Source: a virus. Taken from it: a stretch of 20,020 nucleotides of DNA. Below are positions 1,166 to 18,122 of the stretch, in pieces. Position numbers and translations under genes: made by a program. The stretch lies in IMG/VR virus record IMGVR_UViG_3300011010_000976, positions 3,999 through 24,018 of that record; one strand, 5' to 3'. How positions within the stretch are numbered: position 1 is the first letter of the stretch; each line of letters starts with the position of its first letter. A model generated the notes under the pieces. That model made no database searches. It was not told where the DNA came from and saw only the letters and a program-made list of their open reading frames with translations.

Positions 1166-2269
1166 ATGACTCAACAAATATCAGAATTTGAATATTTAGG
1201 AAATAGCTTACAAAAGTTTAATTCTAATATGAATGAATTAAACGTTCGAATGGATCGTTTATATTCAGATACAAACAAATGGAACTCAATACAAGATGCA
1301 TTTAATTCAGTGTTTAGTGATTTAAACAATCTTTGTACATTTGTAAACATAAATTCTGGTTACTGGAAACGTTCTGCTGATTTAGTTTATAATCTTCGTG
1401 GATATTGGGAAGAACCAATTCAAATTGTTTATAAAACTACTTTTAGTTGTGTTGCAAACATGCTTGAAGTAGAAACATGGTTAAATGACAATTTTCCATC
1501 GGAAAACTTTTCACCAACACAAATTATTAGATGTGACTATATTTGTAATAATTATAGTGCAGATGGTTTAGATAATACAAGATTAAAAGAATATAAACCA
1601 GAGGTTATGGAAAAGTTAGCAGCTAATTATTCTGTATCAGTTCAAGGAGTGTTTGACTTTTTAAGTTATAAAAATCAATTAGAATCTCTTATTGTTGTTT
1701 TTAATACTATTTTTAGAAAATACGGAAAAGATAGTTTAATTATAACAGGAATTGATTCGATTACAAGTATAATAAATCTTGTAACATATAATATAAACTA
1801 TGACATTTTTGAATCAAGCGAACTTAAAGATTTCTCTCAAACAGATTTGAAATTATTCCACTCATATGTTTATCAATACAACATTGTTATAGAAAAATAC
1901 AATATTTATATACAACGTAATTTTGAAGATATTCCAACTAATATTCTTGTTCAATTTGAACCAAAAAATATTAACATGTATACAGGTGGTCGTTTCTTTT
2001 TTAAAATAAGAAACGGACGTTGGAGCTATCATGATTACACTAGTATTGAGTTTTGCTCAGATAAATTATGTAATGATTGTTACGACTCATTACCAATAAA
2101 CGATCTCTACAAAGAAAAGGATTGTCCACAAAGATTTAAATATCTTTTAACTGAATGTGAATTTTTTAACCCAGCCACCGATCCTGCTATTCCTTATGTT
2201 GTTCCTTATGTTGAAATGTTATCACTTAATGTTTCCGAAACAACTATTTTAAACGAACTATTCTCATGA
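1166..2269 (+). CDS. probable tail-fibre/stalk protein, paralogue of upstream gene (paralogue B)
   Basis: This 367-residue protein shares its architecture with the gene at 462. Residues 11, 25, 39, 53, 67 and 81 read L, L, W, L, W, W at exactly 14-residue spacing. Then come an EPIQIVY segment (compare KPISLIY), a V..WLN..FP segment near residue 105, and a G..F......RW.Y block near residues 275-288. About 100 extra residues sit between the last two blocks. The C-terminus adds a cysteine cluster (C297, C302, C305, C320, C331). The ATG at 1166 is 2 bases after the previous stop, with no ribosome-binding site. It ends in an ATGA overlap with the next gene, so the pair is probably co-translated. 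No named family was recognised; a fibre or baseplate role is inferred. Confidence 0.7.
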   Translation: MTQQISEFEYLGNSLQKFNSNMNELNVRMDRLYSDTNKWNSIQDAFNSVFSDLNNLCTFVNINSGYWKRSADLVYNLRGYWEEPIQIVYKTTFSCVANMLEVETWLNDNFPSENFSPTQIIRCDYICNNYSADGLDNTRLKEYKPEVMEKLAANYSVSVQGVFDFLSYKNQLESLIVVFNTIFRKYGKDSLIITGIDSITSIINLVTYNINYDIFESSELKDFSQTDLKLFHSYVYQYNIVIEKYNIYIQRNFEDIPTNILVQFEPKNINMYTGGRFFFKIRNGRWSYHDYTSIEFCSDKLCNDCYDSLPINDLYKEKDCPQRFKYLLTECEFFNPATDPAIPYVVPYVEMLSLNVSETTILNELFS

Positions 2270-3705
2270 AAAAAATATCAAACGATGATAATTTCCAAAA
2301 TTTTTTAAATGAATACGTTAATGTAGAAGTTAACGGAGTTATTAAAAAGTTTTTTGTATCAGAAATAAATTCTGGAAGTTTTGTTACAAATGCAGGAATT
2401 TTAAATAATTACACTACATTAGGTAGCAGTACAAGACAAGACTGCGATTCTTGTGAAGATGTTTGTTATAGAAACATTCCTATTATTAAAGTTATGTTTA
2501 ATAACGTAGTTTATAACGGTCCTCCTTATATTAATACTTTCTCTAGTGAGATTCACGAACTTATATTAAATGGAACTTCTTTAGGAAACATAAATACTAC
2601 ATTTCAAAAAGGAAAGCATAATGAAATTTGGTTTGTTCCTTATAATCCTTCAGAAGTAATTGTTTCTACAACCTATGCATCATCAGCAAATAGTTCAATA
2701 ACTAATACTAAATATTATGGAAATATAGATAGTTTAGTACTATCATCATTTGATTCTTCATTATTAAGTAAAAATGATTATAACGAAATAAGTATTCGAC
2801 CAATTTCTGCATGGAATCCTGTAATATGCGATTATTCTGAGTGTCAGTTTCAACCTCCATTAAATAGTGCATTTTTCTTAAATCCAGAAATATCTCTTGA
2901 TATTCATCAAATATCCCCTTTAACCACCAATACATCTTCTATATATTGTCAAAGTTATACAATGCATAATTTTAGCTGGTTTGAAGGTAATAGTGATGTG
3001 TTAAGTTTACAGGGTGGAACTGAACCAACAGCTTTGCGGTTTTTTAATGGCGGAATGCAACCCCCTGGTTTTTCTCCCACGGCTTATAGATATGTAAAAA
3101 ATTACCTTTCAGCAGGTAGTGTTTATCAACCATATAGTGCATCTTTTTATTATTTCGATCCTTGTCAATTATTTAATCCAGCGTATTATCCGTTAGATCC
3201 CGAATATTATTATACATATAAAATAGAACCAAACGGAGATCCGGTAAATAATTATGATGTTAGATTTGCATACGGATGGGCAAATGGCAGCTTGTCCATT
3301 TATAATGTATCACCATCCGCTAATCCTAATCTTCCATTGTTAAGGAAATATCAATTTTTTGGTTCTCCAAATATAAATGACCCAATATTTATATTTGTCG
3401 GCAGTAAAACAAAAAATCCAGATGAATATAGTTTAAATGTAATAAATAATTCAGAGTATAAAACAAGAAGTCCTGAATTGGGAAGTACAAATAGTAATAG
3501 TGTTTGGGGATTTATAAAGGGTTCTAGTAAGAGTGTATTATATAACTCTAAATATACTAATGACCTTTTTACAGGAACCTTTTATGCATTAGAGGATAGA
3601 ACATGGCAAGTTGGTGGAACTATTAGATTTCGACAGATGAATGTTTATATAGATTCTAGTATATCAACTATAACACAGAATATTTCTGTTGGTCCTCTTA
3701 TATAA
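2266..3705 (+). CDS. hypothetical virion-surface protein, aromatic/Asn/Ser-rich
   Basis: A 479-residue protein of unrecognised family, very rich in Asn, Ser, Tyr and Pro and poor in charged residues, as is usual for beta-rich phage adhesins. A C-x2-C-x3-C cluster lies at residues 60-67 and further cysteines near 188-193 and 300. The N-terminal ~45 residues (VNGVIKKFFVSEINSGSF) look like a small beta domain. The ATG at 2266 overlaps the preceding stop as ATGA. It is the last gene before the glycosyltransferase at 3709, so it is a candidate acceptor for the modification enzymes that follow. Distal fibre or adhesin is the best guess, from composition and position only. Confidence 0.65.
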   Translation: MKKISNDDNFQNFLNEYVNVEVNGVIKKFFVSEINSGSFVTNAGILNNYTTLGSSTRQDCDSCEDVCYRNIPIIKVMFNNVVYNGPPYINTFSSEIHELILNGTSLGNINTTFQKGKHNEIWFVPYNPSEVIVSTTYASSANSSITNTKYYGNIDSLVLSSFDSSLLSKNDYNEISIRPISAWNPVICDYSECQFQPPLNSAFFLNPEISLDIHQISPLTTNTSSIYCQSYTMHNFSWFEGNSDVLSLQGGTEPTALRFFNGGMQPPGFSPTAYRYVKNYLSAGSVYQPYSASFYYFDPCQLFNPAYYPLDPEYYYTYKIEPNGDPVNNYDVRFAYGWANGSLSIYNVSPSANPNLPLLRKYQFFGSPNINDPIFIFVGSKTKNPDEYSLNVINNSEYKTRSPELGSTNSNSVWGFIKGSSKSVLYNSKYTNDLFTGTFYALEDRTWQVGGTIRFRQMNVYIDSSISTITQNISVGPLI

Positions 3706-3708
3706 TTT

Positions 3709-4746
3709 ATGACTGATAGAAAAATTATAATGGCAGGTCTTGCTAATAACAAAACTTCATTAGGTGAAGTTTTTCGTAGATACGTAGAATGTTTTAAAAC
3801 ATTTAGCAAACCTGATGTTTTTGATTTACATCAATTTACAAAAAACGAAGAATTTAAATTAGATTTATTTCCACCGTATAGTGGGCCGATAAATCATGAT
3901 ATTAAATATTTTCACTCTACTTTTAATCTTTATCGTAATATAAAAGAAAAAACCAAACCTTTTCCTAGAAGTTCAAATGTTAAAAAGATTGGTTATTTTG
4001 TTTGGGAGAGTTCTGAATTACATAATCAAGATGTTGAAGTTTTAAAAGACTTTGACGAAATATGGACTGCAAGTAAATATTGTAAAGATATTTTTTCACA
4101 ATATATAGATTCATCACTTATAAAAGTCATTCCACATCCAATACCAATTCCAGCTAAATTTCCTAAAAAATATAAAAATTTTACAATACTAATTATGGGA
4201 AATATTTCTAGTAATGTAGATCGTAAAAATATCGTTGGTAACTTAGAAGTTGCTAAAATTATAAAACAAAAATATAAAGATGTTAACGTAATTTTTAAAA
4301 CTTTTACTGGTTCAGATAACGAACGTGATCTTTTGAAACAAATTGTAGGAGATTCTAAAATAAAAGTTATTGATGAATATTACTCCTCGGAAAAAGTTCA
4401 AGATCTAATATGTAAATGTCACGTAATTTTATCTCTTCATCGTAGCGAAGGTTTCGGTTTAACTCTTGCAGAAGCAATGGCAGTTAATACAGTTCCTATA
4501 GCTACAGGATATTCAGGAAATGTAGATTTCATGAAAGATGTCAACTCTCTAGTCGATTATAAATTAGTAGATGTAGATATTCCTTATTTCAAAGGACAGT
4601 GGGCGGAACCAAATAAAGATAATGCTATAAATAAGATAGAAATTATTAAAAATAACACATATAATACTATATTTAATAATCTACAACATATAAAAGTCAG
4701 TAACTCATCATATACAATAACCGAAATAATTAAAAATACTTTATGA
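3709..4746 (+). CDS. GT-B glycosyltransferase (GT4/group 1-like)
   Basis: A 345-residue retaining-type GT-B glycosyltransferase. The diagnostic nucleotide-sugar-binding stretch is HRSEGFGLTLAEAMA at about residues 244-258, with E247 and E255 forming the E-x7-E pair. Before it lie the usual GYFVWES (95-101) and DEIWTASKYCKDIF (116-129) segments, and after it the PIATGYSGNVDFM segment. There is no signal peptide or membrane helix, so it should act in the cytoplasm on a protein or nucleotide-linked acceptor. It starts 3 bases after the probable adhesin gene and overlaps the methyltransferase gene by ATGA. Linkage to structural genes rather than DNA-modification genes suggests virion-protein glycosylation, but transfer to host surface glycan or phage DNA cannot be excluded. 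Confidence 0.9.
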   Translation: MTDRKIIMAGLANNKTSLGEVFRRYVECFKTFSKPDVFDLHQFTKNEEFKLDLFPPYSGPINHDIKYFHSTFNLYRNIKEKTKPFPRSSNVKKIGYFVWESSELHNQDVEVLKDFDEIWTASKYCKDIFSQYIDSSLIKVIPHPIPIPAKFPKKYKNFTILIMGNISSNVDRKNIVGNLEVAKIIKQKYKDVNVIFKTFTGSDNERDLLKQIVGDSKIKVIDEYYSSEKVQDLICKCHVILSLHRSEGFGLTLAEAMAVNTVPIATGYSGNVDFMKDVNSLVDYKLVDVDIPYFKGQWAEPNKDNAINKIEIIKNNTYNTIFNNLQHIKVSNSSYTITEIIKNTL

Positions 4747-5234
4747 TAGATACAATAATATATAATAATAAAAAATATCCAGCATTCCAAACACAAGGTT
4801 TTGCATCACAGTTTATAATACCGTATGCCAAACATATATGTAAAGGATTTGGGGTGGATGTAGGATGTAATAGACTAGAATGGTGTTTACCAAATGCTAT
4901 ACCTATTGATCCTATTGTAAATAATTTTGACGCTTTAAACATTCCATATAATAACTTGGATTATATTTTTTCTTCACATTGTTTAGAACATTTAGATGAT
5001 TGGGTTAATGTATTAAATTATTGGGATACTTTACTCAAAGTTGGCGGAGTTATATTTTTATATCTTCCTGATTATTCTCAAGAATATTGGCGACCTTGGA
5101 ATAATAGAAAACATAAAAATATTTTCACACCAAATATATTAGAAGATTTTTTTATTGAAAAGAAATATTCTAATATATTTAAAAGTGGAGTTGATCTTAA
5201 TAACTCATTTTCTATTTTTGCAGAGAAGACTTGA
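4743..5234 (+). CDS. small class I SAM-dependent methyltransferase
   Basis: A 163-residue protein of the methyltransferase-11 type. GVDVGCNRLEW at about 37-47 is motif I (D39, G41), and the acidic/aromatic FSSHCLEHLDDW at about 76-87 is the usual post-motif. LKVGGVIFLYLPDY at 98-111 is the beta-5 region. It is short for the family (usually 200-250) and lacks an N-terminal extension, but the C-terminus looks complete. The ATGA overlap with the glycosyltransferase implies coupled translation and a shared task, perhaps capping the added sugar. Its last 23 bases overlap the end of the convergent gene on the other strand. Confidence 0.8.
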   Translation: MIDTIIYNNKKYPAFQTQGFASQFIIPYAKHICKGFGVDVGCNRLEWCLPNAIPIDPIVNNFDALNIPYNNLDYIFSSHCLEHLDDWVNVLNYWDTLLKVGGVIFLYLPDYSQEYWRPWNNRKHKNIFTPNILEDFFIEKKYSNIFKSGVDLNNSFSIFAEKT

Positions 5235-6765
5235 CAATATTTTCAAATTTAGTTATATGAGTTTCGTTAAAATCTATAGAATCTACAGCGACTACGTTAT
5301 CTCTATTAAATGCATCAAAGTATCCTTGATGTCTAGTATCCTCATTTATTAATCCATATAAAGAATTACTTTTATTAGGAACCACTATAAGTATATTACT
5401 ATTAATTGCTGCGGCATAATGATACATCGAACTATCACAACATACTATTCCATCACATATATCTATTAATTTCATCACACCTGTTACTGACAATTTATCT
5501 ACAACATTTACTACAGCATCAAAAATTGGTTCTTCTCTAATATGTTCATTGATGTTATTTCTTCCTATTTGTACAATAGTATAATTATTTTTAAAGTTGT
5601 CTATTATTTTTTTAGTTATATTATTAGGTATATTTCTACTTATATTTCCAGCACTGGGAGATATAACTAATATAGGCTTTTGAAAAGCTTTGATGCTATC
5701 TATAACTTTTTTATCTTCTTGTGTTTCTTGAAAATTAGGAGACATAGGTAAATTATCCCTGAAAATATCTTTTCTATCAAATAATACGTTTTCTAAATTT
5801 ATATTATTTTCTTGTAAGAATTCTAACTCTCTTTTATGTATAATATCCATTCTATCAGTATTAGAAGATAACTTAAATAAATTATTCATATTTTCTTTCT
5901 GACTAATATCGAATATAATTATTTTATCAGAATTTTCCATAGATGTAAATATTTCTTTTGCAAATTTGTTATGAGAAAATAAACTTATTATTATTTTGTC
6001 GTTAGATTCTTTTAAAAATTTAGAAATATTGTTATATAAATTATGTTTTGTTGATAATTTTATAATATCTCCTAATCCTGCACCAAATCTAAGAAGATGA
6101 TATTTGGTCGTTTCTTTTTTATTAATATTATGAATATATTCTAAATAATCTTTCCAAAATATATTTTTAGAATAATATTTCATAATATTTTCTGAGAAAA
6201 TATCAGTATTAACCCACCAATCTTCATGAACTCTCAGTTCTATAGTATCATCTATTCTCTTATGATGAAATCCTAATCCATCTACTATACACTTATACTT
6301 AGGAAATTCTGATAATCTATTGGTCATAGCTGTTTTTTTCTCATTTGACTGGTTCTGATGATACGTATCATGTTCAAAACACATCACCCCAAAAGATAAT
6401 TTATCGAATGGAAAATTATTCAATACTTTTACAGTTGCATCATCTACATCAAACGATAAAAAATCCACATAATTTCCAAATTTTTCAATATAGAAATCAC
6501 ATAAATCATTAAGTTGAATAGGATCGGATAAATCTACTATTCTGAATAGACATTTACGTTTAGACTTAATATAGAGTTGTTCTAAATTACTATCTATATC
6601 AGTTATAATACCGTTCCATCCTTTATTTTCTAAATAAAATGTATTATTACATTGTATAGGGTGATTACACCCCAAATCTAAAAATGTTTTTTTCCTTTGA
6701 TCATTTATTAAAAAATCCACAAATATATCTTGTCCTTCTTTAGAATTATTGTAACATTTATTCAT
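5212..6765 (-). CDS. FkbM-like methyltransferase fused to GT9-like glycosyltransferase
   Basis: This 517-residue protein has two parts. Residues ~10-195 resemble FkbM-type methyltransferases: KTFLDLGCNHP at 26-36 is SAM motif I, followed by GWNGIITDID and a FLSFDVDDA segment. Residues ~225-515 resemble family 9 (heptosyltransferase-like) enzymes: an RFGAGLGD loop, then LVISPSAGNISRNIPN, TIVQIGRNN, and CDGIVCCDSSMYHYAAAINS, which is the usual C-terminal donor-binding part. The fold calls are firm by motif; the substrates are unknown. It runs opposite to its neighbours, converging on the methyltransferase gene (23-base overlap) and diverging from the sulfotransferase. A sugar-transfer-plus-O-methylation role in the same decoration pathway is inferred. 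Confidence 0.8.
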   Translation of the reverse strand: MNKCYNNSKEGQDIFVDFLINDQRKKTFLDLGCNHPIQCNNTFYLENKGWNGIITDIDSNLEQLYIKSKRKCLFRIVDLSDPIQLNDLCDFYIEKFGNYVDFLSFDVDDATVKVLNNFPFDKLSFGVMCFEHDTYHQNQSNEKKTAMTNRLSEFPKYKCIVDGLGFHHKRIDDTIELRVHEDWWVNTDIFSENIMKYYSKNIFWKDYLEYIHNINKKETTKYHLLRFGAGLGDIIKLSTKHNLYNNISKFLKESNDKIIISLFSHNKFAKEIFTSMENSDKIIIFDISQKENMNNLFKLSSNTDRMDIIHKRELEFLQENNINLENVLFDRKDIFRDNLPMSPNFQETQEDKKVIDSIKAFQKPILVISPSAGNISRNIPNNITKKIIDNFKNNYTIVQIGRNNINEHIREEPIFDAVVNVVDKLSVTGVMKLIDICDGIVCCDSSMYHYAAAINSNILIVVPNKSNSLYGLINEDTRHQGYFDAFNRDNVVAVDSIDFNETHITKFENIVKSSLQK

Positions 6766-6843
6766 ATAATTGTATAATATTTTTACTTATAAAAAAAATA
6801 ATATTTAATATTTGCATGTATTATCGTTCATAATTAAATAGAT
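6766..6843. promoter_or_regulatory. divergent intergenic region, probable promoters both ways
   Basis: This 78-base, almost pure A/T gap lies between two divergently read genes. On the minus strand TATTAT sits 8 bases before the ATG at 6765. On the plus strand TAAATA (6835-6840) precedes the sulfotransferase start. No clear -35 sequence is present on either side. Any promoters here are inferred from the gene arrangement. Confidence 0.4.
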
Positions 6844-6858
6844 ATGTATTTAATTATG
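6829..6858. repeat. perfect 11-bp inverted repeat over the sulfotransferase start codon
   Basis: CATAATTAAAT (6829-6839) and ATTTAATTATG (6848-6858) are exact reverse complements separated by 8 bases. The right arm ends in the ATG at 6856 chosen as the sulfotransferase start. As RNA it would form an A-U hairpin hiding the start codon; as DNA it is a dyad that a dimeric repressor could bind. It has no following T-run, so it is not a terminator. Confidence 0.6.
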
Positions 6859-7602
6859 AAAAAATTTCTAATATCTTCTCCTATGAGAGTCGGATCAACA
6901 ATAATAGGAAAAATATGCTGTAAACTATTTTATCGAGGTGACAATAGATTATTTATTGATGATAATTGTATGAAGGACGATAAACTAGATACTGATTATA
7001 TAAAAAATATAATAAATGACGAAAATATTCCTATATTTTTAAAAAGTCATATAATACCTCCGGTAAAAATGTCAGAAATTTTTAATGCAGGAATAGATTT
7101 ACCTATAATAAACATTAAACGAAATTTAAAAGATGCATGGATAAGCAGATTTTTTTATACTCGTTATCATAGAACAGTAGTTCATAAAGATTCTTATAAT
7201 GATTTATTAGACGAAATAACTGATATGAATCACTTATCAGATTCAGAATTTATGAAATTTCTATGTAGACATTCTGTAGGTAAAACTTGGGCAAAAGAAC
7301 ATTTAGAATTTGAAAAAGACGATATAGTAAAAACAAATATTAATTATTTAAGCATTCAATATGAAGATTTTTTAAATGATCCACATTCTTTATGTTTTAA
7401 TCTTTCAAATTTTTTAAAAACTGACTTTTCTTATACATACATAGATTCTATAATTGAAGAAACCAAATTTTCTAAACTCGCTCATCTTGAAGAAGTTAAT
7501 AGAGAACGATACGGAAATTATAAATTTTTCAGAAGCGGCAAAATAAATACTTGGAATAATTATCTAGATGAAGATGATTATAAAGAATTATTAAATTTCT
7601 AA
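6856..7602 (+). CDS. PAPS-dependent sulfotransferase
   Basis: A 248-residue protein matching the sulfotransferase fold. SSPMRVGSTIIGK at residues 7-19 is the 5'-phosphosulfate loop. INIKRNLKDAWISRFF at ~85-100 gives the 3'-phosphate site (R89, S97). IQYEDFLNDP is the usual strand before the C-terminal helices, and RSGKINTW at 226-233 matches the RKGxxGxW element that closes on the nucleotide. It should move sulfate from PAPS to a hydroxyl or amine, probably a sugar given the adjacent glycosyltransferases. An in-frame ATG at 6844 adds only four residues; 6856 is preferred because the domain begins at once. The APS kinase-like gene follows 13 bases after the stop. Confidence 0.85.
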   Translation: MKKFLISSPMRVGSTIIGKICCKLFYRGDNRLFIDDNCMKDDKLDTDYIKNIINDENIPIFLKSHIIPPVKMSEIFNAGIDLPIINIKRNLKDAWISRFFYTRYHRTVVHKDSYNDLLDEITDMNHLSDSEFMKFLCRHSVGKTWAKEHLEFEKDDIVKTNINYLSIQYEDFLNDPHSLCFNLSNFLKTDFSYTYIDSIIEETKFSKLAHLEEVNRERYGNYKFFRSGKINTWNNYLDEDDYKELLNF

Positions 7603-7615
7603 TTTTTTATTAAAA

Positions 7616-7993
7616 ATGAAACAGATTATATTAATAATGGGATTGTCCGGTAATGGTAAAACTACTTTCTATAATAATACAAAAATATTATTAAAGGATC
7701 ATCTTTATTTAAATGCTGATGAAATCAGAAAAATTTATGATGATTGGGATTTTTCTATTAGTGGTCGTATTCGACAAGCACAAAGAATGAAAAATCTTTC
7801 GGAAAAAAGCGAACAGTCTTTAATTGTTATAGATATGATTTGTCCTTTAAAAGAAATGAGAAGAGTTATAAAACCTGATATTATATTTTTTATAAATCGA
7901 AAAGATAGTAGCAAATATACTGATACTGATAATATATTTGAATCACCATCAGAAGATGAGTGTGAAATTCTTTACATAATAAAAAGTAATTAG
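7616..7993 (+). CDS. shortened APS kinase (CysC-like), probable PAPS donor synthesis
   Basis: A 125-residue P-loop kinase. GLSGNGKTT at 9-17 is the Walker A in the form typical of adenylylsulfate kinases (GLSGSGKST). LNADEIRKI at 32-40 matches the LDGDxxR motif with D35, and WDFSISGRIRQAQRM matches the GFS..DR.EN.RR region. KYTDTDNIFESPSEDECEI at 100-118 matches the family's C-terminal F-T-G-x-D-D-P-Y-E-x-P-x-x-P-E signature. Normal CysC is 170-200 residues; here the segment carrying K-G-L-Y-x-x-A-R between beta-strand 4 and the C-terminal signature is missing. It may be a minimal or altered-specificity kinase. Placement right after a sulfotransferase strongly supports PAPS supply. Confidence 0.75.
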   Translation: MKQIILIMGLSGNGKTTFYNNTKILLKDHLYLNADEIRKIYDDWDFSISGRIRQAQRMKNLSEKSEQSLIVIDMICPLKEMRRVIKPDIIFFINRKDSSKYTDTDNIFESPSEDECEILYIIKSN

Positions 7994-7999
7994 TAAATA
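7994..7999 (+). promoter_or_regulatory. possible TAAATA late-type promoter element
   Basis: GTAAATA follows the stop of the kinase gene, 7 bases before the ATG at 8007, with no sigma-70 -35 box. Distance and sequence match the element before 16661 and 462. Weak on its own. Confidence 0.35.
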
Positions 8000-8006
8000 T
8001 AACTAT

Positions 8007-8228
8007 ATGTTAAACAACTTATCATCTGACAACGTAAAATATATTTTAACAATATTAGCAGTATGTGCTATTATTGTTGGATTTTTCTTAGATAAAATTG
8101 CTGCTGAAGTTTTTTACACTACTATTGGTAGCATTATCACTCATTTCTATCAAGGTAATAAAGTTAAAGAATTAAAAACTGAAATAGAAGCACAAAAGAT
8201 TGAATTACAATCTTTAAAAAATGGCTAA
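8007..8228 (+). CDS. small membrane protein with C-terminal coiled coil (holin-like?)
   Basis: A 73-residue protein. Residues ~11-30 (YILTILAVCAIIVGFFL) form a clear transmembrane helix. A second, less hydrophobic helix at ~34-52 may also insert. Residues 53-71 are a charged heptad-like helix (VKELKTEIEAQKIELQSL). No signal-peptide cleavage site is seen. Size and layout would suit a holin, an anchored lysis regulator or a superinfection-exclusion protein; none can be chosen from sequence. Its last 8 bases overlap the start of the head-completion gene, a link to late virion genes. Confidence 0.65.
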   Translation: MLNNLSSDNVKYILTILAVCAIIVGFFLDKIAAEVFYTTIGSIITHFYQGNKVKELKTEIEAQKIELQSLKNG

Positions 8229-8706
8229 AAAAAGAACATACAGGGAATTTAAACAAGGAATTTATAAGCCTCAAAATCCTATAAAATGTCTTAATAAAGA
8301 CAATATTGTTTATCGTAGTGGTCTTGAACGCAAACTTATGCTTGTTCTTGATAAAAATCCTAATGTTGTTCAGTGGAGCAGTGAAAAAGTAATTATACCT
8401 TACAAACATCCTGTTAAATCTGCTCAGAGTGGAACACCTCAATATGCAAGATATTTTGTTGACTTTTATATGAAGTTAAAAGTTGGTGAGGTTGTAAAAG
8501 AATATTTGGTAGAAGTTAAACCAGAAAGGCAATGTTCAGCACCTACAAACCATGGTAATAAAAAAAGAACTACTCTATTATATGAGAATCTACAATGGGC
8601 TATTAATCAAGCAAAGTGGGAAGCAGCAGAAACTTACTGCAAAAAGAAAAATTATAAATTTTTAATCATTAACGAAAAGAACATTGATAATATACTTTCA
8701 TCGTAA
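8221..8706 (+). CDS. 4: head completion nuclease, T4 gp4-like
   Basis: A 161-residue protein matching the T4 gp4 (gp50) head-completion family, which has a PD-(D/E)xK/TnsA-like nuclease core. VYRSGLERKLMLVLDKNPNVVQW at 30-52 carries the first acidic residue (E36), ARYFVDFYMK at 76-85 carries D81, and YLVEVKPERQ at 95-104 carries E98 and K100. IIPY and the C-terminal KWEAAETYCKKKNYKFLIINE are also shared with gp4. It is thought to trim or seal packaged heads before tail joining, so it is a late gene. It overlaps the small membrane protein upstream; phoH follows 20 bases downstream. Confidence 0.88.
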   Translation: MAKKRTYREFKQGIYKPQNPIKCLNKDNIVYRSGLERKLMLVLDKNPNVVQWSSEKVIIPYKHPVKSAQSGTPQYARYFVDFYMKLKVGEVVKEYLVEVKPERQCSAPTNHGNKKRTTLLYENLQWAINQAKWEAAETYCKKKNYKFLIINEKNIDNILSS

Positions 8707-8726
8707 TATAGATAAGTAATATATAC

Positions 8727-9461
8727 ATGGGAGAAAGCCGTGCTAGAAAAATAAAACAAGTAAAGGAGAGACTTAAAAGCTCTTTTTTAATTTCAGAACC
8801 ATTTGCTTGGAATTATAAACAAGCTGAGATATTAGAGAAAATGCTGCACCTTGAAACAAAATGTGTTATTGTTGACTCTCTTGCAGGAACAGGTAAAACT
8901 ATTATGAGTACTTTTGCTGCACTTAAACTACTTCAAAGAGGAGAATGTAAAAAAATGTATTACGTTCGATCTGCGGTAGAGAGTGCTAGTAGCAAACTAA
9001 TGGCCCTTCCTGGCTCTTGGGAAGAGAAAATAGCTGTGTATGGCGGACCATTAAATGATTCATTAAACAAGCTTTTAACACCACAAGAAGTAGAGGGATT
9101 TTTCAAAAATAAAACTATAGAAATTATACCATTATCTTATCTTCGTGGTAGAAGCTTTGAAAACTGTATTATTATATTAGACGAAGCACAAAACTGTCTT
9201 ATGAACGAAATTATTACAATAATGACTCGTTTAGAAGAGAGTTCTAAACTTTTTATTATTGCAGATAGTGACCAATGTGACTTAGGTAAAAATTACCAAA
9301 ACGAATTTCCAAAAACTGTTGAACTTTTCAATACTAAAGAATCAGAAGAACATGGCATTTATAATTATGAAATGCGTGATCCTGAACTTGTAATGAGAAG
9401 TGCATTTGTAAAATATGTATCAAAGAGGTACAATGATTACAAAAAATTAATTAAATTATAA
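8727..9461 (+). CDS. phoH: PhoH-like P-loop ATPase
   Basis: A 244-residue PhoH-family protein. DSLAGTGKTIMS at ~50-61 is Walker A. YYVRSAVESASSKLMALPGSWEEKI is the family's RPxxxxGxxLGFLPG-like segment in divergent form. IIPLSYLRGRSFENCIIILDEAQNC carries the conserved LRGRT-like motif and Walker B, and IIADSDQCDLG is the sensor-like GDxxQ motif with serine-aspartate in place of GD. PhoH is an ATP-dependent RNA/DNA helicase-like enzyme widespread in phages; its phage role is unsettled. The start at 8727 has no ribosome-binding site. Transcription ends at the strong hairpin just downstream. Confidence 0.9.
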   Translation: MGESRARKIKQVKERLKSSFLISEPFAWNYKQAEILEKMLHLETKCVIVDSLAGTGKTIMSTFAALKLLQRGECKKMYYVRSAVESASSKLMALPGSWEEKIAVYGGPLNDSLNKLLTPQEVEGFFKNKTIEIIPLSYLRGRSFENCIIILDEAQNCLMNEIITIMTRLEESSKLFIIADSDQCDLGKNYQNEFPKTVELFNTKESEEHGIYNYEMRDPELVMRSAFVKYVSKRYNDYKKLIKL

Positions 9462-9463
9462 AC

Positions 9464-9493
9464 AAAAAACCCGCTCTTTTGAGCGGGTTTTTT
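9464..9493. terminator. bidirectional rho-independent terminator
   Basis: A perfect 13-bp stem: AAAAAACCCGCTC (9464-9476), loop TTTT, GAGCGGGTTTTTT (9481-9493). The core is GC-rich in an otherwise AT-rich window and has A- and T-tracts on the two sides. It separates phoH (plus) from the small convergent gene ending at 9495 and should stop transcripts from both sides. Confidence 0.95.
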
Positions 9494-9494
9494 A

Positions 9495-9677
9495 TTAGAC
9501 ATTTTTATCTAAGTGTTCGAGTGCATCTTTTAGCATTTGAACCTCATCTTTTGTTAATCGGACTTTACCTTTATAATCATCAGAAATAGTAAATTCATTT
9601 TCATTTACCTTTTCAACAATTGGACAGCAGCTTCCAGCACGACAGAGACGAACGGAGTTTTGATTTAGAATAACCAT
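9495..9677 (-). CDS. small conserved CRAGSCC-motif protein
   Basis: A 60-residue protein with the N-terminal motif RLCRAGSCCP (three cysteines), then ISDDYKGKVRLTKDEVQMLKDAL, which looks like two beta-strands and a helix. Small proteins of this pattern (LCR..xCCP, then DD.GG.V.LT) occur in phages and bacteria without known function; I recognise the pattern but cannot name a role. The cysteines could bind a metal. AGGAG lies only 1 base before the ATG, too close to act as a normal ribosome-binding site. A promoter ends 7 bases before the ATG, so the mRNA is probably leaderless. Confidence 0.75.
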   Translation of the reverse strand: MVILNQNSVRLCRAGSCCPIVEKVNENEFTISDDYKGKVRLTKDEVQMLKDALEHLDKNV

Positions 9678-9684
9678 ACTCCTT

Positions 9685-9712
9685 TATTTACAAAAGAATA
9701 TTAAATTTTCAA
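9685..9712 (-). promoter_or_regulatory. promoter for CRAGSCC gene (leaderless start)
   Basis: On the minus strand TTGAAA (9712-9707), a 16-base spacer, then TAAATA (9690-9685), 7 bases before the ATG at 9677. It lies over the end of the upstream gene. The -10 is also a T4-late-like TAAATA, so early or late use is unclear. Confidence 0.5.
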
Positions 9713-10387
9713 TTGTCCACGAAGAGCTAATTCGTCGTAAACATTTTCTAAGTCACCAAGAACAGAAGTTGTTGTTTCAATAAGCTTGCCATCACTTCCA
9801 ATATATTCTTTCATGTAAGAAATCTTTTGATCAAGATCACCTTCAAGAACAATAAATGCTGGTTGGTCTTCTTTATCAAAAATAACACCTGCATTCTTTT
9901 TATAAGTTTCATGAACACCATAAAAAATGTTGTTAATTTCTTCACGAAATGATTCGTTACTTGAACGATTTTCACTTTCTTCAATTGGAATATTCGGATT
10001 GATTGGAAGCCATAAAATTATGTCATAAAACTTAAGACATTCTTTTGTTATAAGAATACTTTGTGCAATAAAGTCATCAATTTCACTTTCTTTTTCAAGA
10101 AACTTATTACGCTCTGCAAGCCAAAAAGTATAAACAAGATTATCTAATATACAACGATCATGAATAGTTTCAGTTTTTCCTGCATTACTCATTGCAAGAT
10201 CCGCAAGAGCATCACGAATAATTACTTGTGAACTCATAGTTCCACTTTCGTTAAGAGTTAAATTTTTCTCTTTAACAAGATCACGATAAGTTTTTTCAGG
10301 AGACTTATACATTGGCCAATAACTTTTAAAAGTATCGACTAATGTAGTTTTTCCAACACATTGAGCACCAACTACAGCAATTCTCAT
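9701..10387 (-). CDS. AAA_28-type P-loop ATPase/nucleoside-kinase-like
   Basis: A 228-residue P-loop protein. MRIAVVGAQCVGKTTL places Walker A at residues 7-15. TIHDRCILDNLVYTFWLAER matches the second conserved block of AAA_28/NadR-kinase-like and deoxynucleoside-kinase-like proteins, and YDIILWLPINPNIPIEE is the strand before the lid. Nicotinamide-riboside or deoxynucleoside phosphorylation are possible reactions; a substrate cannot be assigned. The ATG overlaps the stop of the VWA gene as ATGA, so the two are translationally linked. An AGGAGG lies 13 bases upstream inside the VWA coding end, further than ideal, and may be only a Glu/Lys-coding stretch. Confidence 0.75.
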   Translation of the reverse strand: MRIAVVGAQCVGKTTLVDTFKSYWPMYKSPEKTYRDLVKEKNLTLNESGTMSSQVIIRDALADLAMSNAGKTETIHDRCILDNLVYTFWLAERNKFLEKESEIDDFIAQSILITKECLKFYDIILWLPINPNIPIEESENRSSNESFREEINNIFYGVHETYKKNAGVIFDKEDQPAFIVLEGDLDQKISYMKEYIGSDGKLIETTTSVLGDLENVYDELALRGQLKI

Positions 10388-11034
10388 ACAGTCTTTTCTG
10401 CCTCCTTTTCATCTTTCATTTCAAAAGTACGACTATAAGTTTCAAGATTTGATCGGTCTAATTTCTTATAACTTTGATAATGATCACTAACATTAGTCCA
10501 TGCAAGATTAATTGCATCTGCACTACGTGCAAAACCCTTTGAAGAAGAAGCACCAATACCAAGACCTGCATGTTGTGCAAGAACTGCATCTTCACCTGCA
10601 CCAAGGAAAACAAAGTCCCATGCATAAGTTTCACGTTGATGCTTAACCTTTTCCTTTATAACATCACTTGTGAATTCTTTAGAAGCATTCTCATAGCCAT
10701 CAGTAATAACAAGAAAAAGAACACGATTTGGACGATCATTTTCATTCATTTTAGAAAGCTTTTCACCAACAGAAGTAATTGTTCGACCAAGTGCATCTAA
10801 CAGTGCAGTTGAACCTCTTGGATTAAGATTAATGTCTAAGGTTTCTTTAATATCCTTATCCTCAAAAATAGCCTCATATTTGTCATCAAATTGATAAAAC
10901 GATACTTTTGTTTCGTCCCCAGTTTCTTTTTCTTTTTGTAAGAAGGTTTTAATGCCACCTACCATATCGTCTGCAATAGAAGACATGCTTCCGCTGCGGT
11001 CTAAAATTATGTTTAAGTCTGTATAATTTTTCAT
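10384..11034 (-). CDS. von Willebrand factor A (VWA) domain protein
   Basis: A 216-residue protein that is essentially one VWA domain. LNIILDRSGSM gives the MIDAS D-x-S-x-S (D12, S14, S16), RGSTALLDALG the MIDAS Thr, and LFLVITDGYENAS the distal Asp. All metal-binding positions are kept, so it should bind Mg2+ and a partner protein. The ATG at 11034 is chosen over an in-frame TTG at 11052 because a -10 box ends 6 bases before it. The TTG lies between the -35 and the -10, so it would not be on that mRNA. ATGA overlap with the downstream P-loop gene suggests an ATPase/VWA pair reminiscent of MoxR-VWA systems, although the ATPase is not MoxR-type. Confidence 0.85.
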   Translation of the reverse strand: MKNYTDLNIILDRSGSMSSIADDMVGGIKTFLQKEKETGDETKVSFYQFDDKYEAIFEDKDIKETLDINLNPRGSTALLDALGRTITSVGEKLSKMNENDRPNRVLFLVITDGYENASKEFTSDVIKEKVKHQRETYAWDFVFLGAGEDAVLAQHAGLGIGASSSKGFARSADAINLAWTNVSDHYQSYKKLDRSNLETYSRTFEMKDEKEAEKTV

Positions 11035-11040
11035 TAGTTT

Positions 11041-11069
11041 AATATAATTCAATTTGATCCTTTATTCAA
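11041..11069 (-). promoter_or_regulatory. sigma-70-like promoter for VWA gene (leaderless)
   Basis: On the minus strand TTGAAT (11069-11064), a 17-base spacer, then TATATT (11046-11041), 6 bases before the ATG at 11034. The -35 is only 4 of 6. The layout matches the stronger promoters at 11722 and 12064. Confidence 0.55.
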
Positions 11070-11070
11070 A

Positions 11071-11304
11071 TTATTTTTCATCTTTTTCTTCCTCGTCATC
11101 ATCTTTTTCTTTAATTGTATCATCACAAACATCTTTAAGCATATTTCTTGCATTATTTTTATCATATGGTTTTACCACCATACTTCCTTTCGGATTTAAA
11201 AATGTCAGTTTATGTTTTTTACACAGAAAGTGTAATTGAGTAAGAAACTCGTCTATCTTTTTGTTTGGAAGCTTTTGCTTCTTTTTTATGTTATAATATT
11301 TCAT
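11071..11304 (-). CDS. hypothetical protein with acidic tail
   Basis: A 77-residue protein of no recognised family. A basic N-terminus (KKKQKLPNKK) is followed by LHFLCKKHKLTFLNPKGSMVVKPYD, which looks like a helix and a beta hairpin. The last ~15 residues are almost all Asp, Glu and Lys, probably disordered. It overlaps the upstream gene as ATGA (11301-11304), so the two are made together from the promoter before 11714. Possibly a small host-takeover protein by context; function unknown. Confidence 0.65.
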   Translation of the reverse strand: MKYYNIKKKQKLPNKKIDEFLTQLHFLCKKHKLTFLNPKGSMVVKPYDKNNARNMLKDVCDDTIKEKDDDEEEKDEK

Positions 11305-11714
11305 AGTTCTATCAAGTATTCTCGAAATTCAATAATAGATTTCAGAACTTGGTTATCTTTTTCAGAAAGGATTTTTTGATTTTCCATCAACTCTCCGATA
11401 TGGTTTTCGTTTACAAACTTCCAAATAGAATCATCTTCTGGAACGTCTGGAAATTCATTGTTTAATGTATTTATTTTTTCAACAGAAAGTAATCGTTTTT
11501 CTGTTATCCAAGAGTAACAAAAGTCAATTTCTTTTTTTATAGCTTTACTACCCTCATCGTCATCCCAAGAAAATTTAGATAATAATTGTTTATTTTCGAT
11601 TTGATCTATAAAAACATTGAATATAATTTCTCTGATCAAATCATCAGCATTCATTTTTTCTTTTGGAAGCTGGTCAATAATCCACCTTTGCTTGGAGAAG
11701 AGGGTTTTAATCAT
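11301..11714 (-). CDS. hypothetical alpha-helical protein
   Basis: A 137-residue, charged, probably all-helical protein with no recognised domain and no membrane segment. The start is the ATG at 11714. An in-frame TTG at 11738 would add eight residues, but it lies inside the promoter, between the -35 and the -10, and so cannot be on the mRNA. With the -10 ending 7 bases before the ATG, the transcript should be leaderless. It is first of a two-gene unit with the acidic-tail protein (ATGA overlap). Confidence 0.65.
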   Translation of the reverse strand: MIKTLFSKQRWIIDQLPKEKMNADDLIREIIFNVFIDQIENKQLLSKFSWDDDEGSKAIKKEIDFCYSWITEKRLLSVEKINTLNNEFPDVPEDDSIWKFVNENHIGELMENQKILSEKDNQVLKSIIEFREYLIEL

Positions 11715-11721
11715 AGAGTAT

Positions 11722-11749
11722 ATTATAGAGTGTTGCAAGTTTTTGTCAA
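11722..11749 (-). promoter_or_regulatory. consensus sigma-70 promoter (leaderless)
   Basis: On the minus strand a perfect TTGACA (11749-11744), a 16-base spacer, then a perfect TATAAT (11727-11722). The usual start point would be near 11715, one base before the ATG at 11714. It fills the 38-base gap after the preceding gene. Confidence 0.85.
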
Positions 11750-11752
11750 TTT

Positions 11753-12055
11753 TTACTTTTTCAATTTTTGAAATTCGGAATAGCTTATAGAGTTCATAGC
11801 ATTTCTTAATTCATCTACATCTTGTTCAGTCATTTCGTTATCCTCACTAAGCATACATTTTTCTAATCTTTGAAGATATTCTTCTTCAGTTATTTTTCCA
11901 CCAACTGATAAATCACGAAATCCTATATCGTCATAAAATTTGTCACCAAATTTATTTTTCCAGTATGTAACTGTGTTCTTTTCATCAAATGGGAAGTTGT
12001 TCCAATAGTTTGAAAGATTTGCACCTTTGCGTAGTTTTGAGCCTTTGCCTGCCAT
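11753..12055 (-). CDS. small phage protein, MAGKGSK-type N-terminus
   Basis: A 100-residue protein. It starts MAGKGSKLRKG, a basic opening seen in many small phage hypotheticals (M-x-G-K-G-S-K-x-R), which supports the ATG at 12055 over an in-frame GTG at 12073. The middle (NNFPFDEKNTVTYWKNKFGDKFYDD) and an acidic helical C-terminus are not recognised. It has its own promoter, back to back with that of the metallophosphoesterase, so it is probably expressed early. Function unknown. Confidence 0.7.
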   Translation of the reverse strand: MAGKGSKLRKGANLSNYWNNFPFDEKNTVTYWKNKFGDKFYDDIGFRDLSVGGKITEEEYLQRLEKCMLSEDNEMTEQDVDELRNAMNSISYSEFQKLKK

Positions 12056-12063
12056 AATAAAAC

Positions 12064-12092
12064 AATATATCACAAAATAAACTCATTGTCAA
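12064..12092 (-). promoter_or_regulatory. sigma-70 promoter (leaderless), divergent pair
   Basis: On the minus strand a perfect TTGACA (12092-12087), a 17-base spacer, then TATATT (12069-12064), 8 bases before the ATG at 12055. The -35 is one base away from the -35 of the plus-strand promoter, so two polymerases would compete for the site. Confidence 0.8.
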
Positions 12093-12093
12093 C

Positions 12094-12121
12094 TTGACTT
12101 TTCTATTCCTTGTTTTATAAT
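12094..12121 (+). promoter_or_regulatory. sigma-70 promoter (leaderless), divergent pair
   Basis: TTGACT (12094-12099), a 16-base spacer, then a perfect TATAAT (12116-12121), 5 bases before the ATG at 12127. The expected start point falls on the ATG itself. Confidence 0.8.
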
Positions 12122-12126
12122 AAAGA

Positions 12127-12939
12127 ATGAACAAACCATCAAAAATTAAAAGAAACGATTACGATAACATTTATTTTGCATCAGACTTTCACTATAATCA
12201 TCAAAGGGACTTTCTTTGGAAGCCTCGCGGATTTTCATCTTTTCAAGAACATGATAAGTTTATTGAAAATGAATGTTCCAAGCTTACAAAAAATGATTTA
12301 CTTATTTATCTTGGTGATTACAGCTTAAATACTACTGATGAAAATACTTCATCTCTGTTACATAAAACAAAGGCAAAGATGTTTTATATCTTTGGTAATC
12401 ATGAAGGCTATCACTCTCGATTTTATCGTGAATCGCTACATGCATTTTACAAGACTTTTCATAATCTTTCAGCAATAGATGATGGATTAGCAAAAGATCA
12501 CTCATCTATGCATGGCTCAAACTTTGTTTCGGAAATTCCATTTCAGATTTTTCCTTTTTCTGTAGATAAAACTACAAAGGAAGGTTTCCCTGGTATGTGT
12601 CGTAAGCTTGGAAAAGATGATGCAGGAAATGAAATCATATATTTTGGAGAAGAAGGTTATTTTCAAATCGGAAACGGTTTTTTCTTTTGCCGACATATGG
12701 CTCCGCTTATTTGGGATAAGATGAAGTATGAGAATTATTTTTCAATCTGTGGTCACTCTCATGGCAACTTAGAAATCGCAAAGCCATCTCATAAAAACGA
12801 TGGTAAGATTCTTGATGTTGGAGTTGATAATACTATTGAATATAATGGTTCAGCATTCTTTAAGGTTGAAGAAGTTAACGATATTATGAACCGTAAAAAA
12901 GTTAAAATCTACGATCATCATGGAGACGAACATATTTAA
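12127..12939 (+). CDS. calcineurin-like metallophosphoesterase
   Basis: A 270-residue metallophosphoesterase with the full ligand set: D20-F-H22, LGD at 62-64, GNHE at 90-93, H190 in CRHMAP, and GHSHG at 209-213, followed by LDVGVDN. The two-metal site is intact, so it should hydrolyse phosphoesters. An insert of about 60 residues lies between the GNHE block and H190 (residues ~115-175), larger than usual. Substrate unknown; protein phosphate, nucleotides or RNA ends are all possible. Its own leaderless-type promoter and position before a 2H phosphodiesterase and a PNK-like kinase suggest a nucleic-acid-end or signal-nucleotide role, which is inferred. Confidence 0.88.
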   Translation: MNKPSKIKRNDYDNIYFASDFHYNHQRDFLWKPRGFSSFQEHDKFIENECSKLTKNDLLIYLGDYSLNTTDENTSSLLHKTKAKMFYIFGNHEGYHSRFYRESLHAFYKTFHNLSAIDDGLAKDHSSMHGSNFVSEIPFQIFPFSVDKTTKEGFPGMCRKLGKDDAGNEIIYFGEEGYFQIGNGFFFCRHMAPLIWDKMKYENYFSICGHSHGNLEIAKPSHKNDGKILDVGVDNTIEYNGSAFFKVEEVNDIMNRKKVKIYDHHGDEHI

Positions 12940-12940
12940 A

Positions 12941-12968
12941 TTGACAAACCTCTTTGTCTATCTATATT
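12941..12968 (+). promoter_or_regulatory. sigma-70 promoter (leaderless)
   Basis: A perfect TTGACA (12941-12946), a 16-base spacer, then TATATT (12963-12968), 8 bases before the ATG at 12977. The -35 begins 1 base after the preceding stop codon. Confidence 0.8.
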
Positions 12969-12976
12969 AATCAACA

Positions 12977-13402
12977 ATGAACTACTGGCTCAAATCATAT
13001 GGCACTCTGCATGTTGGCAACGATGTTGTTCGCATAGCTGTGTCTAATGATTTTGGTAAATATTACCAATCTTTAATTGATAAAGATGTTCGACTTTTTA
13101 CAGGTTTACCTGCTCATGGAAGCCATATTACATTATGGCAACCAAGTATTCATGGTAAACTACCAATTGATAAGGCAAAGTTTTTAAAAGGATTTTATAA
13201 AAAGAATCCAATCGTTTTTGAATATGATATAGATATTATCGAAGGTGGTAAAACTAAAAACTTTCGCAATTGGTATATGAAAATTCGTTCAATGGCAGGG
13301 GAAAGTATCTGTAAATATCTCGGAAACGATCAGTATAAGCATTTACATTTGACCATCTCAAATACTAAAAATTCCGTTCGTCCTTACATTTGGATGAAAT
13401 AA
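12977..13402 (+). CDS. 2H phosphodiesterase, candidate Acb1-type anti-CBASS nuclease (T4 57B-like)
   Basis: A 141-residue protein with the two H-x-T motifs of the 2H phosphoesterase superfamily: GSHITLW (H50, T52) and HLHLTISNTK (H124, T126). Total length and motif spacing resemble T4 57B/Acb1, which cuts cyclic oligonucleotide messengers of the CBASS defence, and the N-terminus (WLKSYGTLHVGNDVVRIAVS) also looks like that family from memory. The alternative is a 2',3'-cyclic phosphodiesterase for RNA repair, supported by the PNK-like kinase directly downstream. The 2H fold is firm; the choice between the two roles is not. It is driven by its own promoter, consistent with early anti-defence use. 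Confidence 0.75.
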   Translation: MNYWLKSYGTLHVGNDVVRIAVSNDFGKYYQSLIDKDVRLFTGLPAHGSHITLWQPSIHGKLPIDKAKFLKGFYKKNPIVFEYDIDIIEGGKTKNFRNWYMKIRSMAGESICKYLGNDQYKHLHLTISNTKNSVRPYIWMK

Positions 13403-13407
13403 ATCTC

Positions 13408-15594: not shown

Positions 15595-15595
15595 A

Positions 15596-16630: not shown

Positions 16631-16660
16631 GAATATACTTATTTACAAATAAATAACAAT
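16631..16660. promoter_or_regulatory. 30-bp divergent region with symmetric TAAATA promoter elements
   Basis: TTATTT-AC-AAATAA (16639-16652) is an inverted repeat. On the minus strand TAAATA (16645-16640) lies 9 bases before the ATG at 16630. On the plus strand TAAATA (16650-16655) lies 5 bases before the ATG at 16661. No -35 box is present on either side, as expected for T4-type late promoters, which fits structural cargo genes. Confidence 0.5.
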
Positions 16661-18056: not shown

Positions 18057-18092
18057 AAAAAAATTGGTATGGGAATTACCCCATACCAATTT
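18057..18092 (-). terminator. rho-independent terminator abutting the HAD start codon
   Basis: On the minus strand AAATTGGTATGGG, a 6-base loop, then CCCATACCAATTT: a perfect 13-bp stem (18061-18073 with 18080-18092). It is followed by further T to give seven in a row, ending at the ATG (18056). It lies about 30 bases after the VWA stop. Confidence 0.85.
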
Positions 18093-18122
18093 ACACTATA
18101 ATTTACTCTATGTCAAAAAGAA

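Follow-up and report, generated by a model that had tools for sequence, protein, structure and literature searches.

A pair of adjacent genes that probably forms a viral sulfation unit was found in a 20,020-nucleotide stretch of DNA (hereafter the window), which comprises positions 3,999 to 24,018 of the 24,018-base IMG/VR virus record IMGVR_UViG_3300011010_000976. The first gene (6856-7602, + strand) encodes a sulfotransferase and the second (7616-7993, + strand) a compact kinase of the adenosine 5'-phosphosulfate (APS) kinase family; the two open reading frames (ORFs) are separated by 13 bases, as the first-pass annotation of the window had stated. We estimate at roughly 0.6 the probability that the pair works as a phage sulfation unit, in which the kinase makes 3'-phosphoadenosine 5'-phosphosulfate (PAPS) from host APS and the sulfotransferase uses this PAPS on an acceptor that is likely a glycan. 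In the proposed mechanism, APS would be made by the ATP sulfurylase of the host and phosphorylated at its 3'-OH by the compact kinase, and the neighboring sulfotransferase would transfer the sulfate from PAPS to the acceptor, with both genes presumably expressed during infection. The acceptor would most likely be a glycan built or edited by the adjacent glycosyltransferases and methyltransferase, on the virion fibers or on the host surface.

A compact kinase of the APS kinase family

The gene at 7616-7993 (+) encodes a protein of 125 amino acids, and its assignment is based on PF01583, phrog_10255, a family profile and an AlphaFold model. The motifs GLSGNGKT, NADEIR, DFSISGR and TDTDNIFESP could be read by eye, and three of these correspond to the Walker A, D-E-I-R and C-terminal T-D signatures reported in the first-pass annotation. 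PF01583 matched residues 3-86 only, with 23.4 bits and thus above its cut-off of 21.1 bits; the E-value of AAA_14 was slightly better (4e-5), yet this match remained below its own cut-off. The phrog_10255 family ('kinase') matched positions 2-105 with 57.3 bits. Both NCBIfam matches stayed far under their cut-offs: the apsK model TIGR00455 reached 24.1 of 138.7 bits, and PRK05541, the best NCBIfam match, 35.3 of 127 bits. A phmmer search of the PDB with the single kinase sequence gave chance matches only, and a family profile was therefore needed for this comparison. With the 20-row family profile A1 the best matches beyond the P-loop were APS kinases, from 7.4e-8, while the top row was the multi-domain adenylate kinase 9, owing to summed weak P-loop matches. 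The compact profile scored five canonical APS kinases at 35-49 bits and five other kinases at 16.3 bits or less.

The kinase is considerably shorter than Escherichia coli CysC (125 vs 201 amino acids). In the alignment to the latter, the loss consisted of a 19-column gap at the lid, a 6-column gap before the lid, the N-terminal extension and the C-terminal end, and the mobile lid sequence DPKGLYKKAR was deleted. The shortness and the lid gap confirm a loss that had been put at about 50 core residues in the first-pass annotation; judged from the family alignment it is a family trait and no defect, because the lid was absent from all 19 of the 20 A1 rows that reach this region (the remaining row, L007, is truncated by the contig end; loci are numbered with the prefix L). 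Equivalents of residues D63, R66, F75 and R80 (numbered as in the Penicillium enzyme) were kept in 56/56 family members, and the F165 position was occupied by Y or F in 54/56. In that enzyme, D61, D63, R66, F75, R80, N83 and F165 are catalytic or APS-stacking residues.

The AlphaFold model of the kinase, calculated from a 56-row alignment, had a predicted local distance difference test score (pLDDT) of 94.2. In a VIA search with this model, rows 1-13 (Z 14.2-13.2) were 11 APS kinases and two APS-kinase-like domains, the latter belonging to the ATP sulfurylase of P. chrysogenum, and the best match aligned 121/125 residues at 2.2 Å. The best Foldseek match was an APS kinase bound to APS. For the kinase, structure prediction, which had been proposed as a check in the first-pass annotation, returned an APS kinase fold. 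Together, these data support the placement of the protein in the APS kinase family and fold; profile comparison favors this assignment over other P-loop kinases, and structure does so by a narrow margin. The enzyme probably makes the activated sulfate of the cell, with APS as its predicted substrate.

In the kinase tree, which was built with loci L326-L331 as references and without the longer APS kinase of record G008, the long outgroup branches met. A 162-amino-acid protein annotated as adenylyl-sulfate kinase on a plasmid of Rhizobium sp. 007 (L332:495-983) scored 137 bits with the compact profile and retains the canonical D-L-G-F stretch; from its sequence it looks like a bridge between compact and canonical APS kinases. 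A canonical-type APS kinase, 47% identical to E. coli CysC and distinct from the compact family, was observed on the 462-kb record of a huge uncultured phage (L333, LR756500.1).

A cytosolic-type sulfotransferase

The product of 6856-7602 (+) is 248 amino acids long and matched PF00685 with an E-value of 2.3e-18, over model positions 3-242 of 255, which corresponds to a whole-domain match. An alternative ATG is present at 6844, and the homologue in L002 begins at the residue equivalent to 6856. By eye, a motif resembling the 5'-phosphosulfate-binding motif (5'-PSB; SSPMRVGSTIIG), one resembling the 3'-phosphate-binding motif (3'-PB; INIKRNLKDAWIS) and a C-terminal motif (RSGKINTWNNYL) were recognized. 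Both binding motifs were also legible in L002, and regular expressions for the two matched L001 and L002, so that the PAPS-binding motifs noted earlier are borne out along with the full-length domain match. A phmmer comparison with solved cytosolic sulfotransferases gave weak matches, the best at 4e-4. Close relatives were found only in the sister contigs L001 (95%; equal to L026) and L002 (84%; equal to L027), and none was found in the phage collection. The family-level assignment to the cytosolic-type sulfotransferases is supported by the profile match, and the enzyme is predicted to use PAPS.

Pairing of sulfotransferase and kinase recurs across viruses

The kinase family is widespread in viruses: at least 556 viral relatives were confirmed among the first 600 pattern matches listed. 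The representatives comprised 83 viral and 19 cellular loci, with L087, L029, L059, L060 and L061 excluded for having no called kinase ORF. Sulfotransferases in these loci were located by phmmer from seeds and typed by Pfam on examples. A Pfam-type sulfotransferase lay directly before the kinase (position -1) in 8/80 viral representatives, compared with 3/663 among positions at a distance of at least four genes (Fisher p 1.6e-6). The adjacent cases included L001, which represents the window's own pair, and L002, both with PF00685; L118 and L131, with PF00685/PF13469; L079, L093 and L122, with PF00685/PF13469 on the opposite strand; and L019, a fragment at a contig end, grouped with L020 and L141, with PF03567. 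In L023/L024 a PF03567 gene was located immediately downstream of the kinase, and some sulfotransferase-kinase pairs overlap by 4 bases. In the reciprocal test, a kinase was present within about 5 kb in 38/80 loci of the GLPRSGST-type sulfotransferase; all 38 were downstream on the same strand and 8 were within 300 bases.

A further family, designated TGPQGSGN, occupied position -1 or -2 in 7/7 of the kinase loci in which it was first observed. The scanned members had no Pfam sulfotransferase match and the family was initially kept apart; it was subsequently counted as sulfotransferase because its predicted fold matches sulfotransferases. The model (pLDDT 89.2) matched sulfotransferases in VIA rows 1-21 (Z 12.1-10.1), with an unrelated chain in the next row (Z 10.0) and adenylate kinases interleaved in the Foldseek result. 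When TGPQGSGN and GLPRSGST were compared by profile, the result was 81%, which is insufficient alone. On the basis of the model, TGPQGSGN appears to be a Pfam-less family of sulfotransferase fold. Pairing with the compact kinase is supported in other phages as well, where the partner enzymes belong to PF00685, PF13469, PF03567 or the Pfam-less TGPQGSGN. The recurrence of the pairs in distantly related viruses suggests that sulfation is a real activity of these viruses during infection.

A second Pfam-less family near the kinase, GAPGSKWSS, was observed at L025:599-1177, L005:4663-5316, L137:2240-2857, L139:3052-3678 and L147:2480-3100. No sulfotransferase match in Pfam was obtained for the scanned members, subthreshold PF13469 matches occurred at its sites on G031 and G075, and profile scores were weak. 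It is possibly another divergent sulfotransferase, although unproven, and was left out of the counts.

The pair in sister phages of the window

A PhoH scan gave 11 near relatives, which were used for a sister-phage comparison. PF03567 and PF13469 were run on the whole records of the group, and the fetched loci were additionally compared with profiles of the PF00685 type and of TGPQGSGN. Both sulfotransferase and kinase were present in L001 and L002. L325 (73% in PhoH) has a kinase at 56% identity, and its cassette holds a TGPQGSGN-type protein (profile E 5.2e-22 as single target, 2.1e-19 over eleven loci), while the PF00685 enzyme is missing. Neither gene was found in L316 and L319-L324, and the weak kinase-profile matches on L319-L322 span only about 35 P-loop positions. 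The cassette between the fiber gene and the kinase differs among the sister phages: its GT4-type glycosyltransferase gene was found in L001, L002, L325 and L319, with only the first 63 residues in L316, and was not found in L003. Across six lineages represented by fragmentary records (window/L001, L002, L003, L325, L316 and L319-L324), no sulfotransferase was found without a kinase, and a kinase without a detected sulfotransferase occurred once, in L003.

Several observations weigh against the pair being a sulfation unit. In L003 the kinase is located directly behind the fiber-gene homologue and the whole glycosyltransferase-sulfotransferase block is absent, while most flanking genes are 84-98% identical to the window and the fiber gene 62%. 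Its 22-kb record had no PF03567 or PF13469 match (the PF03567 controls were also blank), and three local profiles revealed no sulfotransferase in its 12-kb locus. The eight adjacent cases amount to about four clades, with related loci treated as independent, and three of the eight have the sulfotransferase on the opposite strand; 69/83 viral representatives had no Pfam-type sulfotransferase in the fetched flanks by the seed-based search. The reciprocal test was seeded from sulfotransferases first met beside the kinase; exclusion of 6 records that the kinase set also contained left 33/74, and clustering at 70% left 6/17, or 4/14 with the same exclusion. TGPQGSGN also occurs apart from the kinase, which was found in only 11/80 of its loci, and all pairing counts stand without a neutral background from kinase-free phages. 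For the kinase itself, the lid is gone in the family, the first Asp of the DGD motif (D61) is replaced by N in 56/56 members, the Asn of ENIRR (N83) by Q in 53/56, and the Ser of ISP (S107) by C or A in 56/56. In the structure searches a gluconate kinase ranked 14th in VIA (Z 13.2, level with the lower APS kinases) and second in Foldseek.

One rival explanation is that two separate moron genes came to lie side by side in this lineage by chance, which we consider quite improbable. L003 shows that the sulfotransferase and the kinase are separable, the cassette varies between sister phages, and the kinase is far commoner than its adjacency to a sulfotransferase. Evidence against chance comes from adjacency that recurs with different sulfotransferase families and from the reciprocal test, each affected by redundancy, and from the failure to find a sulfotransferase without a kinase in the six window-group lineages. 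The narrower idea of a one-contig accident, raised by the L003 kinase that lacks the cassette, was set aside after the adjacency test and the reciprocal test, the latter being weaker than its raw count suggests. Because L003 retains a kinase although the glycosyltransferase-sulfotransferase block is absent, the pairing is not obligate. The earlier interpretation is thus partly supported: the two families, the kinase fold and the recurring pairing hold, an obligate association does not, and donor synthesis is incomplete in the window.

Gene content of kinase-bearing viral records

Of the 106 kinase loci from viruses and phages, 50 and 48 entered the whole-record searches; these were hand-chosen longer records with near-copies kept. 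Sulfotransferases were present in 21/48 records by strict criteria (exceeding the Pfam cut-off, or matching TGPQGSGN strongly) and in 27/48 at E <= 1e-3; the families searched were PF03567, PF13469 and TGPQGSGN, not PF00685, and the union was counted by hand. The kinases of L004, L006 and L007 are 72%, 44% and 52% identical to that of the window, and PF03567 sulfotransferases are located elsewhere on their records. PAPS reductase (PF01507) was found in 0/48 records, while each of the 14 control genomes was positive in the same search. For canonical ATP sulfurylase, 0/48 records had a match above the cut-off and one had a subthreshold match.

The lack of a PAPS reductase match on these records, together with the sulfotransferases on them, argues against sulfate assimilation as the purpose of the kinase. 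According to that alternative, the kinase gene would be a cysC of the usual auxiliary metabolic kind, stimulating the host's assimilation of sulfate into cysteine via PAPS reductase, and the sulfotransferase would be unrelated. Viral cysC and cysH have been interpreted as assimilatory sulfate reduction genes in the accessible text of one report (PMC9529941), and cysC, cysD and cysH have been reported from Lake Baikal viromes, as far as the available part of that study goes (PMC8066274). The records searched here may be incomplete, and the phage could rely on a PAPS reductase of its host; with sulfotransferases in 21 to 27 of the 48 and PAPS reductase in none, we regard this explanation as very unlikely.

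A nucleotidyltransferase partner and cellular relatives of the kinase

A small HxGH nucleotidyltransferase was present in the kinase locus of 36/83 viral representatives (in the same ORF in 23, as the next gene in 11) and of 18/19 cellular representatives; by tblastn it was found in 35/36 cellular loci. The phrog_10255 family extends over both, with its nucleotidyltransferase portion at about 124-228; the window has the kinase portion only. The partner had no match among the 28 window proteins, and the family scans of 11 window proteins named no ATP sulfurylase.

The 36 convincing cellular kinase loci were mostly from SAR11 and also from SAR86 and other marine proteobacteria; L069-L071 were left out of this set as short P-loop matches. 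In 3/36 the kinase and nucleotidyltransferase lie directly behind CysQ (TIGR01331 above cut-off), and in 5/36 the kinase is near AprA/AprB (above cut-off, one ORF in between); in one of the latter (L066) the nucleotidyltransferase is missing and a TauE exporter directly precedes the kinase. In L038 (1/36) the kinase and nucleotidyltransferase are followed by a sulfotransferase with a marginal PF00685 match (22.4 vs 22 bits). CysQ, AprAB or a sulfotransferase was thus near the kinase in 9/36 cellular loci, and the remaining 27 show none. These neighbors point to sulfur chemistry. Genome searches covered 29 of the 36 loci, largely partial assemblies; of these 29 genomes, 1 had a canonical ATP sulfurylase, 0 had CysD, and 3 had a longer additional APS-kinase homologue.

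Further observations were made at individual cellular loci. The AprAB loci L064:3804-7377, L066:5083-9174, L067:3769-7309 and L068:5983-9517 are SAR11/alphaproteobacterial, the intervening ORF encodes 116 amino acids, and the nucleotidyltransferase is present in 4/5. The kinases of L064 and L068 have, by eye, an extra stretch roughly at the lid position. In L059:2504-6799 and L061:800-6799, Xsc (sulfoacetaldehyde acetyltransferase) lies upstream of the CysQ-kinase-nucleotidyltransferase genes, a hint of a link to organosulfonate breakdown.

The partner nucleotidyltransferase may be hypothesized to be a candidate unrecognised ATP sulfurylase. The kinase and the ~125-amino-acid HxGH nucleotidyltransferase would then constitute a minimal PAPS synthetase, the partner being of nicotinamide mononucleotide (NMN) adenylyltransferase-like ancestry. 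Streamlined marine bacteria would use this synthetase for sulfotransferases, as would many phages, which have it as a fusion or as a pair, and phages with only the kinase and sulfotransferase, such as that of the window, would tap host APS. We offer this extension tentatively and hold it to be somewhat doubtful.

The best match of the partner profile was NMN adenylyltransferase (5.7e-7), which weighs against the sulfation unit in that it would also suit nicotinamide chemistry. In the main rival explanation, the kinase acts on another nucleotide, either a conjugate like that of Cj1415 of Campylobacter or an intermediate of a nicotinamide-nucleotide or other cofactor pathway with the NMN adenylyltransferase-like partner, and the sulfotransferase is independent and fed by host PAPS. 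PRK05541 as the best NCBIfam match of the kinase (35 bits) fits this reading, as do the retention of the kinase alone in L003 and the position of the pair in L021 between genes that resemble, by eye, those of dihydrofolate reductase and thymidylate synthase. We take Cj1415 to be a relative of APS kinases. It has been characterized as a cytidine diphosphoramidate kinase that, with Cj1416-Cj1418, makes CDP-phosphoramidate 3'-phosphate, according to the accessible text (PMC11800397). Two SAR11 proteins that are PRK05541/Cj1415-like by eye scored 25-27 bits with the compact profile, vs 35-49 bits for the five canonical APS kinases, and the association of the kinase with sulfotransferases, CysQ and AprAB would be unexpected for nicotinamide or phosphoramidate chemistry. 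Action on another nucleotide is judged unlikely, and a sulfation unit with APS as the substrate of the kinase remains the preferred explanation.

The gene cassette, its borders and the source of the window

The pair is part of a variable cassette. From the fiber-like gene to the head closure gene, the order is GT4, methyltransferase, divergent GT9-like gene, sulfotransferase, kinase and small ORF. The left border is a putative fiber-like structural gene (2266-3705, +), whose function is assumed from its position; its product had no significant Pfam or PHROG family. It is followed by the GT4-type glycosyltransferase (3709-4746, +; PF00534, 6.9e-11) and an S-adenosylmethionine-dependent methyltransferase (4743-5234, +; PF08241, 6.1e-7). 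The gene at 5212-6765 (-) encodes a two-part protein with a GT9 heptosyltransferase-like C-terminal domain (PF01075, 5e-9 over 342-457); its N-terminal 230 amino acids had no Pfam match at 0.01 and are methyltransferase-like by eye only. Between this divergent gene and the sulfotransferase there is a gap at 6766-6855, and any promoter for the pair would be located within this gap or inside the GT9 gene. The right border is formed by a small membrane-like ORF (8007-8228, +; read by eye) and a T4 gp4-like head closure protein (8221-8706, +; phrog_218, 1.7e-44). The head closure gene was matched by 2477 phage records, every one below 60% identity, and window DNA 4000-20020 had no match in the phage collection. 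The T4 gp4-like gene and the lack of a match for the window DNA in this collection indicate an uncultured, probably T4-like phage as the source.

Outside the cassette, a cluster of nucleotide- and RNA-repair-like genes was observed at 9701-14395, including a kinase with a weak match to deoxynucleoside kinases, a polynucleotide kinase-like kinase and a metallophosphoesterase-like gene (by eye). The gene at 13859-14395 (-) is 2H phosphoesterase-like (PF13563, 9.4e-11) and possibly a counter-defense gene; its match to the anti-CBASS protein Acb1 was subthreshold (PF23474, 26.4 of 27 bits). At 12977-13402 a 141-amino-acid protein has two H-x-T motifs by eye and no Pfam match, and the proteins encoded at 10384-11052 (-) and 18123-20018 (-) both show von Willebrand A-like motifs by eye.

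Relation to known systems and significance

The compact kinase shares the fold and the Walker A motif with CysC and the APS kinase domain of PAPS synthetase (PF01583, TIGR00455). Like CysC, it has the equivalents of D63, R66, F75 and R80 and a C-terminal aromatic residue, and CysC-type enzymes were its best profile and structure matches; unlike CysC, it has no lid, carries D61 to N, N83 to Q and S107 to C/A replacements, and lies far below the TIGR00455 cut-off. Viral CysC proteins from the Challenger Deep, as described in the accessible text, have 109-135 modelled residues, form a clade apart from cellular CysC and were modelled as APS kinases (PMC9529941). These are short like the window kinase and probably belong to the same family, by description rather than by sequence comparison; in that text they are interpreted in terms of sulfate assimilation, with no link to a sulfotransferase. 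The sulfotransferases described for OM43 phages, likewise a sulfotransferase family of aquatic phages, belong to PF13469, whereas the window enzyme belongs to PF00685, and the main text of that report does not contain the word 'kinase' (PMC10580990). The Cj1415 pathway resembles the present proposal in that a nucleotide donor serves glycan decoration, but it makes a phosphoramidate donor; the likeness is one of described function. No description of a phage sulfotransferase-APS kinase pair was found among the literature matches listed, a search that covered little of subscription journals and preprints. Donor synthesis combined with transfer is a known logic; what we rate as new is a kinase that has no lid and is paired in viruses with sulfotransferases that are interchangeable.

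Phage sulfotransferases have been noted before without a known purpose, and viral cysC has been interpreted as serving sulfate assimilation. The linkage of the two genes in several phage lineages, together with the finding of PAPS reductase in 0/48 kinase-bearing records, points towards sulfation being an activity of viruses; the pair is a small two-gene system open to expression and assay. The cellular relatives of the kinase are a candidate answer to how sulfate could be activated in streamlined marine bacteria for which no canonical ATP sulfurylase was detected. If the minimal PAPS synthetase proposed above is true, the kinase and its partner would make PAPS in SAR11, SAR86 and other marine bacteria of the streamlined kind, most of whose partial genomes showed no canonical ATP sulfurylase.

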